Source of the DNA: Synergistaceae bacterium
Lineage (GTDB): Bacteria > Synergistota > Synergistia > Synergistales > Aminobacteriaceae
Reading direction: 5' to 3'
Assembly (NCBI GenBank): GCA_017450125.1
Contig: JAFSWZ010000014.1
Span: 1-64,000, forward strand
Length of the DNA stretch: 64,000 bases
This document shows, piece by piece, positions 46,878 through 49,734 of this stretch. The translations under genes and the position numbers were made by a program. How positions within the stretch are numbered: position 1 is the stretch's first letter; the number at the start of each line of letters is the position of its first letter. Under the pieces are notes generated by a model. It did not search any database, was not told where the DNA came from, and saw only the letters and a program-made list of their open reading frames with translations.

Positions 46878-47381
46878 ATGAAGACTGTACTTACAGGCAA
46901 ATGTATAGTAATCGGCGACAACATCGACACTGACCAGATATATCCGGGCCGTTTCCTCGCAATCACTGACCCGAAAGAGATAGGCTCTCACTGCCTCTGC
47001 GGAGTCAGCGAGGACATTTCCCCTAACTTTCCGCAGGGAGGTTTCGTTGTGGCGGGGCGTAACTTCGGGTGCGGGTCGTCGCGCGAACATGCTCCGATTG
47101 CACTGCTCAACATGGGAGCAGTCGCGGTCTTGGCCGACTCGTTCGCACGGATATTCTTCAGGAACGCCGTAAATCTCGGACTCCTGCCCATAATCTGCAA
47201 GGGGTTAAGCCAGCACGTCAAGGCCGGACAAACTTTGACGCTCGACCTCGACAAAGGAACAGTGAAGGTTGAGGAGACAGGAGAAGAGTACGAGTGCGAG
47301 AAGCTGGGGGAACAGGCGATGAAGATTCTGGAAGCCGGAGGGATTAAGCCTCTGATGCGGGCAAGGTTCGCAGGGAAATAG
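46878..47381 (+). CDS. 3-isopropylmalate dehydratase-type small subunit
   Basis: A 167-residue small subunit partner: GDNIDTDQIYPGRFLAITDP near the start, AGRNFGCGSSREHAPIALLNMGAVAVLADSFARIFFRNAVNLGLLP in the middle, giving the substrate-binding SSREHA loop. Twelve bases after the large subunit, with GGAGG upstream. Its 3' end overlaps the convergent HxlR gene by 38 bases. Confidence 0.9.
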   Translation: MKTVLTGKCIVIGDNIDTDQIYPGRFLAITDPKEIGSHCLCGVSEDISPNFPQGGFVVAGRNFGCGSSREHAPIALLNMGAVAVLADSFARIFFRNAVNLGLLPIICKGLSQHVKAGQTLTLDLDKGTVKVEETGEEYECEKLGEQAMKILEAGGIKPLMRARFAGK

Positions 47382-47697
47382 CTTCCTTGTAGGATTTTCC
47401 CCAGTCCTCCATAACGTGAAGCACGGGCTTTAACGTCATGCCCAGTTCGCTCAGCTGGTACTCAACGCACGGAGGCCGAGAGTTATAGACCTTGCGGGAA
47501 ATCAGCCCGTCAAGTTCCATCGAGCGCAGGGATTCAGTGAGGACTTTATGGCTTATGCCGGACAGACTGCGCTTGAGCTCGTTGAACCTGCAGGGCTTTA
47601 TGAGGAGCTCGCGGATAACAAGCAGCTTCCATTTGCTGCCGATTAACTGTATTGCTGTTGCGGCCGGACATTCCGGGAGTTCGTGTTTGTGAATCAT
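47344..47697 (-). CDS. HxlR/DUF24 family redox-type transcriptional regulator
   Basis: A 117-residue winged-helix protein: QLIGSKWKLLVIRELLIKPCRFNELKRSLSGISHKVLTESLRSMELDGLISRKVYNSRPPCVEYQLSELG is the DUF24 signature. Cys10 in ECPAA is at the conserved N-terminal position used for thiol sensing in DUF24 regulators such as HypR and YodB. It is divergent from the CGG-peptide operon (100-base spacer), whose last gene is a nitroreductase, the typical DUF24 target. A TATAAT only ~9 bases before its ATG suggests a very short leader. Confidence 0.9.
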   Translation of the reverse strand: MIHKHELPECPAATAIQLIGSKWKLLVIRELLIKPCRFNELKRSLSGISHKVLTESLRSMELDGLISRKVYNSRPPCVEYQLSELGMTLKPVLHVMEDWGKSYKEAISLRTLPASEA

Positions 47698-47735
47698 AGT
47701 ACTGATTATACATGCGGTTACAAATTAGTGCGTTC

Positions 47736-47764
47736 TTGCGGGATTACGTGATGTTGTCTATCAT
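47736..47764 (+). promoter_or_regulatory. Candidate promoter of the CGG-peptide operon
   Basis: TTGCGG at 47736 and TATCAT at 47759 are separated by exactly 17 bases and lie ~34 bases before the peptide start, in the divergent spacer with the HxlR gene. Confidence 0.5.
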
Positions 47765-47797
47765 GCGGAGCAAAATCATTCACAGGAGGCAGCATCA

Positions 47798-47932
47798 ATG
47801 GCACTCAAAGACTTAGCAGACTGGGGCAGCAAGGCTTCATCATGCGGAGGACAGAAACCGTCGGCTTGCGGCGGAAAGAAAGACGTATCATGCGGAGGAA
47901 GCAAACCCTCAGCTTGCGGCGGAAAGAAATAA
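47798..47932 (+). CDS. 44-residue CGG-repeat peptide, putative radical SAM substrate (RiPP precursor)
   Basis: A 44-residue peptide: leader-like MALKDLADWGSKAS, then four Cys-Gly-Gly units spaced about eight residues (SSCGGQKP, SACGGKKD, VSCGGSKP, SACGGKK). The repeat has the form (S/A)CGG-x-K. AGGAGG lies eight bases upstream. The layout, with a radical SAM/SPASM gene directly after it, fits ACGX-repeat type RiPP precursors, as far as I recall that family. Cysteines would be sites of thioether or other crosslinks (inference). No leader protease or exporter is seen nearby. Confidence 0.75.
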   Translation: MALKDLADWGSKASSCGGQKPSACGGKKDVSCGGSKPSACGGKK

Positions 47933-47940
47933 CTGACACG

Positions 47941-47970
47941 ATACCCCGTTCACAAGGCGGGGTATATTTG
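47941..47970 (+). terminator. Attenuator-like hairpin between peptide and radical SAM gene
   Basis: A perfect 8-bp stem ATACCCCG/CGGGGTAT with a 9-base loop ends in a weak ATTTG. It would give partial termination and also covers the region just before the radical SAM start, lowering enzyme level relative to peptide. Confidence 0.6.
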
Positions 47971-47975
47971 TGCAC

Positions 47976-49007
47976 ATGCGATACTTCTCGTTTCAGTGGC
48001 ACATCACCGACGAATGCGACCAGCGGTGCAAACACTGCTACATATACTCAGGCGAAAACACACACGCTCCCGAGAGCATGACGCTTGACGGCATTCAGCG
48101 CGTGTTCTCGAACTGCCTGAACTTCTGCGGGACTTTCGGGCGGATACCATACTTCTACATTACGGGAGGAGACCCGATACTTCACCCAAACTTCTGGGAG
48201 CTCCTCGAAACTTTCCATGAACACAATATAGGCTTCTCGATTCTCGGCAACCCCTTCCACATTGACGCGGACACCTGCAGAAGGCTTAAGGTTCTCGGCT
48301 GTGAGAAGTACCAGCTCTCGATTGACGGCCTCCGTGAGACGCACGACTACTTCAGGAAGCCGGGCTCATTCGACGCGACATTGAACGCCGTCAAGACCAT
48401 CAACGATGCCGGAATATGCTCGGTCATAATGTCTACCGTCTCAGGCCGGAACATTCACGAGATACCGGGCGTGATTGATGTCGCTGTAGAGCGTGATGCT
48501 GAAGTGTTCTCGTTCGCGCGGTACTGTCCGACACACGAAGGCGAGACCAACGGCATAACTCCGAGTGAGTACCGCGAATTTCTCGGACTGTGCGACGAAA
48601 AGTTCAGGTATTACGAGAGCAGGGGCTGCCGGACATACTTTGACCGCAAAGACCACCTGTGGACCCTATACGATCACGGGCGGGGACGATTCACGATACC
48701 AGAATCCGCCGAACGTGGCATAATTTACGGCGGGTGCAACTGCGGAAACGCTCATTTGACCATCCTTCCGACGGGAGAGGTTTACGCCTGCAGAAGGGTC
48801 AAGGGCAGCAAGGTAGGCAATGCATTAACTGACAGACTCGCTGATTTGTGGCTGAATGAGATGGAACGTTACAGGGAATATAATAGATTCGTGAAGTGTT
48901 CGAGGTGCGAGCTATTGGCATATTGTCGCGGATGCCCTGCAGTCGCTACAGGAACACACGGAGATTTTTACGCGGAAGACCCGCAATGCTGGAAGGAGAT
49001 ACAATGA
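47976..49007 (+). CDS. Radical SAM/SPASM peptide maturase
   Basis: A 343-residue enzyme (ATG 47976; GTG 47970 also possible, no strong ribosome binding site). The radical SAM cluster motif is CDQRCKHC (~14-21); YITGGDPILHP (~63) and LSIDGLRETHDYFR (~117) follow. The C-terminal SPASM-type region has CNCGNAHLTILPTGEVYACRR and CSRCELLAYCRGCPA with a last Cys in DPQCW, ligands for auxiliary 4Fe-4S clusters. Such enzymes modify Cys-containing peptides. Its TGA overlaps the nitroreductase ATG. Confidence 0.88.
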   Translation: MRYFSFQWHITDECDQRCKHCYIYSGENTHAPESMTLDGIQRVFSNCLNFCGTFGRIPYFYITGGDPILHPNFWELLETFHEHNIGFSILGNPFHIDADTCRRLKVLGCEKYQLSIDGLRETHDYFRKPGSFDATLNAVKTINDAGICSVIMSTVSGRNIHEIPGVIDVAVERDAEVFSFARYCPTHEGETNGITPSEYREFLGLCDEKFRYYESRGCRTYFDRKDHLWTLYDHGRGRFTIPESAERGIIYGGCNCGNAHLTILPTGEVYACRRVKGSKVGNALTDRLADLWLNEMERYREYNRFVKCSRCELLAYCRGCPAVATGTHGDFYAEDPQCWKEIQ

Positions 49008-49585
49008 TGGACATTATAGACGTAATCAGGACGAGGCACTCAATCAGGAAATACTTGGCCAAGCAGATAGAGCGCGGAGACCTCGAGAAAATCATAGAGG
49101 CCGGGCTTCGCGCACCGAACGCAGGCGGACGGCAGGGAAGCATAATCATCGGCATTCACGACGCAAGACTCGCCGAGCTTGTCGGGAAGCTCAACGTTGC
49201 ACAGTTCGACAGGTCTGCGCTTCTGGGCAGCTATGTCTCTGATGAACAGCCCAGCATCATCGATGACCCGTCAATCAAGAGCGGGTTCTACGGTGCTCCG
49301 TGCGTGTGCGCGGTCTTCGGGCCGGAGGATTTTCTGTACAGCGTGGCGGATGCGTTCTGCTGTGCCGAGAACATGATTCTTGAGGCTCACTCAATCGGGC
49401 TGTCGTCATGCATAGTTGCGAGAGGCGAGGAGACTTTCACCAGCCCCGAAGGCCGGAAGCTCCTGAAGGAGTGGGAGATTCCCGAAGGCTACACGGCAAG
49501 ATGCTTCGTGCTGCTGGGGTATATTGACGGTCCTGAACCTTCCCCCAAGAAACTGCATGAAGGAAGATTCAGGATTGTGGGGTAA
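49004..49585 (+). CDS. Nitroreductase family flavoprotein
   Basis: A 193-residue FMN-dependent oxidoreductase: MMDIIDVIRTRHSIRKY (FMN phosphate contacts R-x-SxR), LRAPNAGGRQ, then CAENMILEAHSIGLSSCIVA and a C-terminal LGY segment. It starts on the ATGA overlap with the radical SAM gene, so it is translationally coupled and probably acts in the same pathway, for example as a reductase or dehydrogenase on the peptide, or as an electrophile reductase controlled by the HxlR regulator. Confidence 0.9.
   Translation: MMDIIDVIRTRHSIRKYLAKQIERGDLEKIIEAGLRAPNAGGRQGSIIIGIHDARLAELVGKLNVAQFDRSALLGSYVSDEQPSIIDDPSIKSGFYGAPCVCAVFGPEDFLYSVADAFCCAENMILEAHSIGLSSCIVARGEETFTSPEGRKLLKEWEIPEGYTARCFVLLGYIDGPEPSPKKLHEGRFRIVG

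Positions 49586-49658: not shown

Positions 49659-49734
<76 letters not shown>

Follow-up and report, generated by a model that had tools for sequence, protein, structure and literature searches.

Radical SAM/SPASM enzymes of the ACGX system and their partner peptides have already been given family names (TIGR04340 for the enzyme and TIGR04341 for the ACGX-repeat peptide), but the family is unstudied; a literature search gave no paper on ACGX together with radical SAM or on TIGR04340, and the term "ACGX" otherwise appeared in unrelated uses. The nearest characterized relative of the maturase described here is SbtM, which converts Cys to a thiooxazole. With respect to regulation, the one-Cys DUF24 repressors YodB, CatR, and HypR of Bacillus subtilis sense quinones, diamide, and HOCl via a conserved N-terminal Cys, and their regulons include azo- and nitroreductases (PMC6943732). 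SirTM/Zn-Macro systems have been tied to oxidative-stress responses, and an extended SirTM/Zn-Macro operon acts on lipoyl-GcvH-L beside two oxidoreductases (PMC4518038, PMC11490716). The targets of SirTM/Zn-Macro pairs outside the lipoyl operon are a stated open question (PMC11490716).

Here, we analyzed a stretch of 64,000 nucleotides from a Synergistaceae bacterium (the window). A preliminary description had proposed a three-gene unit at 47798-49585, in which a peptide gene is followed by genes for a radical SAM/SPASM enzyme and a coupled nitroreductase. The three genes were confirmed, the latter two with domain matches (PF04055, PF13186, and PF00881) and an ATGA overlap, while the divergent HxlR gene and an operator-like box had been overlooked; the HxlR gene belongs to the unit. 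The features of the cassette are as follows.

47344..47697, minus strand: HxlR/DUF24-family regulator, divergent (117 aa; PF01638, 105 bits)
47717..47738, plus strand: operator-like box GTTACAAATTAGTGCGTTCTTG, conserved across cassettes
47736..47764, plus strand: putative promoter TTGCGG-17-TATCAT with a weak -35, overlapping the operator-like box
47784-47789, plus strand: Shine-Dalgarno sequence AGGAGG of the precursor gene
47798..47932, plus strand: ACGX-type precursor peptide (44 aa; MALKDLADWGSKASSCGGQKPSACGGKKDVSCGGSKPSACGGKK)
47941..47964, plus strand: intercistronic hairpin between the peptide and maturase genes
47976..49007, plus strand: radical SAM/SPASM maturase, ACGX system (TIGR04340, PF04055, PF13186)
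49004..49585, plus strand: nitroreductase-family FMN reductase (193 aa; PF00881, 74.4 bits)

We favor, by a modest preference, the reading that this cassette is a thiol/electrophile-stress response of the ACGX system and that its product is an intracellular peptide with modified cysteines.

Gene organization and distribution

Scanning of GTDB genomes for the maturase gave at least 510 relatives, and 80 loci from rumen Synergistaceae and gut Clostridia were examined. Across these loci, the unit consists of a divergent HxlR gene and the genes for an ACGX peptide, a radical SAM enzyme, and a reductase. In the genus of the window species, where approximately 20 of 43 genomes carry the maturase family, the HxlR/peptide/maturase/nitroreductase block recurs with changing neighbors. 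Absence of the peptide gene next to orthologous maturases had been named as the observation that would speak against a maturation unit; instead, a precursor was present in 77 of the 80 loci, which are from other genomes. Because the peptide and the gene order recur both in the genus and in these distant loci, the peptide is not a chance ORF. No exporter or protease family recurred near the cassette in the 80 loci, nor did a C39 peptidase or an immunity gene, and the lack of protease and exporter, which had been considered unusual, is thus the norm of the family.

Apart from the window species, a single further genome (G245) has the cassette after leuD, and other species carry other genes at this site. 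A fixed insertion site after leuD was therefore rejected, and the position of the cassette is variable. The scattered occurrence and the variable site fit a transferable unit. A tRNA-Arg (CCT) gene lies at 49659-49734, directly downstream of the cassette; in relatives without the cassette at this position, no tRNA gene was detected up to 1.5 kb from leuD. In several Synergistaceae (L033, L036-L039, and L042), the cassette is flanked by genes for a MerR regulator most similar to NmlR and an aldo/keto reductase, which are again genes of the aldehyde/electrophile type. A clostridial-type ACGX cassette was also present on a 4745 bp contig (L047) of a Candidatus Brocadia (planctomycete) MAG. Because this contig is short and falls inside the clostridial clade, it is probably contamination and was left out of the taxonomic spread.

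The precursor peptide

The window peptide consists of the leader MALKDLADW and four (S/A)CGG repeats. Its translation has Cys at positions 16, 24, 32, and 40, a spacing of exactly 8 residues, in agreement with the earlier description of a 44-residue peptide with four evenly spaced CGG units. The peptide gave no match to TIGR04341 (cut-off, 28 bits) up to an E value of 10, and the precursor of a near relative in the Synergistaceae (L040) scored 14.4 bits, below the cut-off, whereas four clostridial precursors scored 59-144 bits. Because the TIGR04341 cut-off is not reached, the window precursor is classed as an ACGX variant, namely the SCGG/ACGG variant of Synergistaceae that escapes the partner model. 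Its repeats are SCGG/ACGG with basic linkers while the clostridial repeats read ACG(S/T)ACGA(G/S)DKPEEKPA, but a MAL...W leader and (A/S)CGX repeats encoded directly upstream of the maturase gene are common to both.

In the 66 complete precursors, Cys is followed by Gly in 383 of 386 cases, and the residue preceding Cys is Ala or Ser at 375 of the 383 Cys-Gly sites. The leader form MAL..L..W is shared by nearly all precursors, and the repeat number varies freely between them (3-13 Cys each). No selenocysteine precursor with TGA in place of a Cys codon was established in the 80 loci, three of which had no readable precursor, one of these starting at a contig edge.

The radical SAM maturase

Although the maturase ORF had been listed at 47970-49007 with a GTG start, orthologues start at the ATG at 47976. 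With a score of 561.5 bits, the protein exceeds the 400-bit cut-off of TIGR04340, "radical SAM/SPASM domain protein, ACGX system", and contains the Pfam domains Radical_SAM (PF04055) and SPASM (PF13186). The CxxxCxxC motif (C14/C18/C21) and the SPASM Cys residues (C254/C272/C308/C311/C317/C320/C338) are invariant across 39 homologues. Judged by its sequence, the maturase is a clear member of the ACGX family. A search with the ACGX models, which had been suggested earlier, therefore supported a peptide-maturation unit of the ACGX kind through the maturase but not through the peptide.

The runner-up model was SbtM (TIGR04082), which was matched over the full length at 168.9 bits, under the cut-off of 350. 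Further families scored near 110 bits, and the scores against PapB/ranthipeptide (NF047865; 50.6 bits, cut-off 340) and SkfB/sactipeptide (TIGR04403; 50.7 bits, cut-off 300) maturases were also under the cut-offs; with these enzymes the window maturase has the fold alone in common. SbtM is likewise a radical SAM/SPASM enzyme for Cys/Sec peptides, but its model has approximately 190 extra N-terminal positions, and no selenocysteine precursor was seen at the window system. Since the kinship lies far under the SbtM cut-off (169 vs 350), the chemistry of the maturase may differ, and the Cys modification is perhaps thiooxazole-like by analogy with this distant relative.

The product might instead be mainly a metal-handling peptide (Cu, Zn, Hg) that resembles thiooxazole metallophores/bufferins and is induced upon an attack of metals or oxidants on thiols. 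Copper binding is known for thiooxazole peptides (PMC12668002, PMC12538549), and the many evenly spaced CG motifs, with 3-13 Cys per precursor, as well as the distant SbtM kinship, are consistent with such a function. However, the neighborhoods of the cassettes show no recurrent metal transporter or regulator specific for metals, and copper stress is less obvious in obligately anaerobic gut hosts. We regard a mainly metal-handling role as unlikely.

An AlphaFold (AF2) model of the maturase (pLDDT 90.6, pTM 0.90) was closest to CteB, anSMEcpe, ChlB, SuiB, and SkfB (Z 24-26, rmsd 2.9-3.7, 271-316 residues). As the structural alignments start past the N-terminal ~90-100 residues of CteB and SuiB, the model leaves no room for a leader-binding domain of the CteB/SuiB type. 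This fold neighborhood, together with the combination of peptide and radical SAM enzyme that is the usual layout of sactipeptides and ranthipeptides, would suit an exported RiPP (bacteriocin or signal) with its protease and exporter encoded elsewhere in the genome. Nevertheless, we consider export very unlikely, given that exporter, C39 peptidase, and immunity genes are not recurrent in the 80 loci, that the precursor has no double-Gly leader site, that precursors are of much the same kind although the number of repeats varies, and that the cassette regulator is of the redox type. The intracellular site of action suggested in the preliminary description is probably right.

Two maturase relatives above the TIGR04340 cut-off (L028:10478-11542 of G011, 447 bits; L128:4289-5356 of G237, 444 bits) adjoin Nif11-like precursors with a double-Gly leader, and L028 additionally has a putative C39-peptidase ABC exporter, as read from its sequence. 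TIGR04340 alone is thus no guarantee of an ACGX precursor.

The exchangeable reductase

The nitroreductase ORF had been listed from 48896, but the ATG at 49004 is the start in its homologues. This ATG overlaps the maturase stop codon (ATGA), and the two genes are therefore tightly coupled. Orthologues of the window nitroreductase that occupy the same slot in other cassettes are 57-83% identical to it, and members of a second nitroreductase subfamily found in the slot are 38-44% identical. Among 79 loci with room, the slot held a nitroreductase in 60, a quinone-oxidoreductase (QOR)-like protein in 14, neither in 5, and both in none; the nitroreductase partner is accordingly not unusual, contrary to the preliminary description. 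The QOR slot protein is a PIG3-like zinc-type quinone oxidoreductase unrelated to the nitroreductase. On the maturase tree, at least 10 changes between the nitroreductase and QOR states were counted, a soft figure because many forks of the tree are open, and when QOR was counted against all rows, branches with 95% support forced a minimum of 5 changes.

The ATGA overlap and the near-constant position of the reductase gene directly downstream of the maturase gene could instead indicate a peptide-tailoring enzyme. In this scheme, modeled on FMN dehydrogenases that act on azolines, the nitroreductase or QOR would oxidize or reduce a dehydrogenated or heterocyclic residue made by the radical SAM enzyme. 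Non-homologous reductases can share one tailoring role in RiPP pathways, as exemplified by the dehydroalanine reductases. On the other hand, the slot has been swapped many times between two unrelated folds among close maturases and is empty in 5 loci with room, and the replacement of one NAD(P)H reductase by an unrelated one makes more sense if the enzyme detoxifies electrophiles than if it carries out a single peptide-tailoring step. In addition, the window nitroreductase gave no match to the SagB-type peptide dehydrogenase model TIGR03605 up to an E value of 10, by which its identity as a TOMM-type dehydrogenase was rejected. SagB-type azoline dehydrogenases also have a nitroreductase fold and adjoin a peptide-modifying enzyme, but the window system differs from them in its exchangeable slot and in having no recurring cyclodehydratase nearby. 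Pairs of HxlR and nitroreductase are, moreover, typical quinone-stress units (PMC6943732). A tailoring function of the reductase thus seems rather unlikely to us.

The HxlR regulator and the operator-like box

The window HxlR protein has an N-terminal redox-type Cys10 (PECPAAT) in addition to Cys36 and Cys76, and scored 101.6 bits against the RrpB model, under the cut-off of 175. Of the 72 loci with enough upstream sequence, 63 have an HxlR gene. The N-terminal Cys (Cys10 column) is invariant in all 66 cassette HxlR proteins and is the sole Cys in 50 of them, whereas the window protein has two more. The window protein thus combines the HxlR domain and the conserved N-terminal Cys by which one-Cys DUF24/HxlR redox regulators are recognized in sequence. 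As in the YodB/CatR/HypR systems, an HxlR gene with this Cys adjoins a nitroreductase gene and a shared box lies in the promoter region, but the cassette regulon also contains a radical-SAM peptide, the modification of which is predicted here.

In the window, the operator-like box has the form GTTAC-n6-GTGCGTTCTTG and a single match, which is also the only exact one in the 2.16-Mb genome. Its core, GTGC[CG]TnCTT, is present in 53 of 57 intergenic regions of cassettes, and of the 14 core matches across 18 clostridial genomes, 10 are located at ACGX cassettes (0 in the reversed control). Because the promoter TTGCGG-17-TATCAT was read by eye and was not listed by a consensus promoter scan, its assignment is tentative. 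The 43-nt gap between the peptide and maturase genes folds into a hairpin (-18.0 kcal/mol, z -6.5), and 92% of 63 loci have a gap hairpin with a z value under -2. Such a hairpin would favor the output of peptide over that of enzyme.

Association with SirTM and Zn-Macro

Downstream of clostridial cassettes, we found varying sets of genes for a PNPOx-ferredoxin fusion, a macrodomain protein-ADP-ribose hydrolase, and a SIR2-family protein, with at least one of these in 35 of 54 loci that have more than 4 kb downstream. In the PDB, the cassette SIR2 protein matched only SpySirTM (5a3a, 265 bits) and a fungal macro-SirTM fusion, and the best matches of the cassette macrodomain (8rsi, 5kiv, 8rsl, 8rsm, and 8rsn) are members of the Zn-Macro group. 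In the order of G043 (Yanshouia), a SirTM gene occurs in 8 of 8 genomes with ACGX compared with 17 of 139 without, and in the order of G042 (Blautia) in 6 of 10 compared with 36 of 186. Pooling of the two clostridial orders gave 14/18 vs 53/325 (p = 6e-8, a statistic that ignores shared ancestry), and the SirTM and ACGX genes lie within ~8 kb of each other in 8 of the 14 co-occurring clostridial genomes. In Synergistota, SirTM is present in 15 of 24 maturase-bearing genomes compared with 18 of 164 others, mostly unlinked to the cassette.

The window locus has no SirTM and Zn-Macro genes. A SirTM-type SIR2 gene of the window genome (G000:C29:72917-73738; L134:6412-7239) is on a contig other than that of the cassette and adjoins a gene whose product matched no Pfam family; SirTM follows a macrodomain gene in sister genomes. 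No cassette-type operator was found at the SirTM gene on C29, and this, like its location on another contig, counts against the stress-response reading. An HxlR box common to unlinked clostridial SirTM genes was also considered and dropped, because the core matches in the 18 genomes are not at such genes. In another member of the Synergistota (G309), an operon at L126:3496-8530 comprises HxlR, the box, SirTM, the maturase, the nitroreductase, and a Zn-Macro macrodomain, as well as an exported SagB-like nitroreductase-fold protein (TIGR03605, 44.6 bits, below the cut-off); no ACGX peptide was found in this operon.

Like the extended SirTM/Zn-Macro operon, the clostridial cassettes pair SirTM, Zn-Macro, and an NAD(P)H oxidoreductase with a candidate sulfur-bearing carrier, but they have no recurrent GcvH-L/LplA2 and the candidate carrier is the ACGX peptide. 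It is conceivable, if quite improbable, that the matured ACGX peptide replaces the lipoyl-GcvH-L of staphylococci/streptococci as the carrier of a SirTM/Zn-Macro circuit, with the nitroreductase or QOR as redox partner. The radical SAM enzyme would then install a reactive group, which SirTM and Zn-Macro would switch by ADP-ribosylation. In the window species, the pair is unlinked to the cassette.

Proposed role of the cassette

The stress-response reading is supported by the Cys present in 66/66 HxlR proteins, the cassette-specific box, the exchange of the reductase, the SirTM/Zn-Macro linkage, and the lack of a recurrent exporter, while the fact that HxlR proteins respond to other signals too counts against it. 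From the computed gene content, invariant residues, and associations, we infer the regulation, chemistry, and activity as follows. As in its family, HxlR would repress the divergent promoter until its N-terminal Cys is oxidized or alkylated. The derepressed transcript would then yield much peptide and, past the hairpin, less maturase and reductase, as the gene arrangement suggests. The radical SAM/SPASM enzyme would modify the Cys of the (A/S)-C-G-X repeats, and the product may remain intracellular and offer many sites for thiol/redox reactions or metal binding. The exchangeable reductase encoded next to the maturase may meanwhile remove quinones or other electrophiles, or recycle the system. 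In gut Clostridia, this stress response would additionally recruit the SirTM/Zn-Macro pair.

Members of the ACGX family are common among gut anaerobes, with at least 510 relatives in one scan. A physiological role that can be tested is suggested by the conserved regulator and box, the exchange of the reductase, and the association with SirTM/Zn-Macro. The ACGX peptide is also a candidate target of SirTM/Zn-Macro pairs found outside the lipoyl operon.
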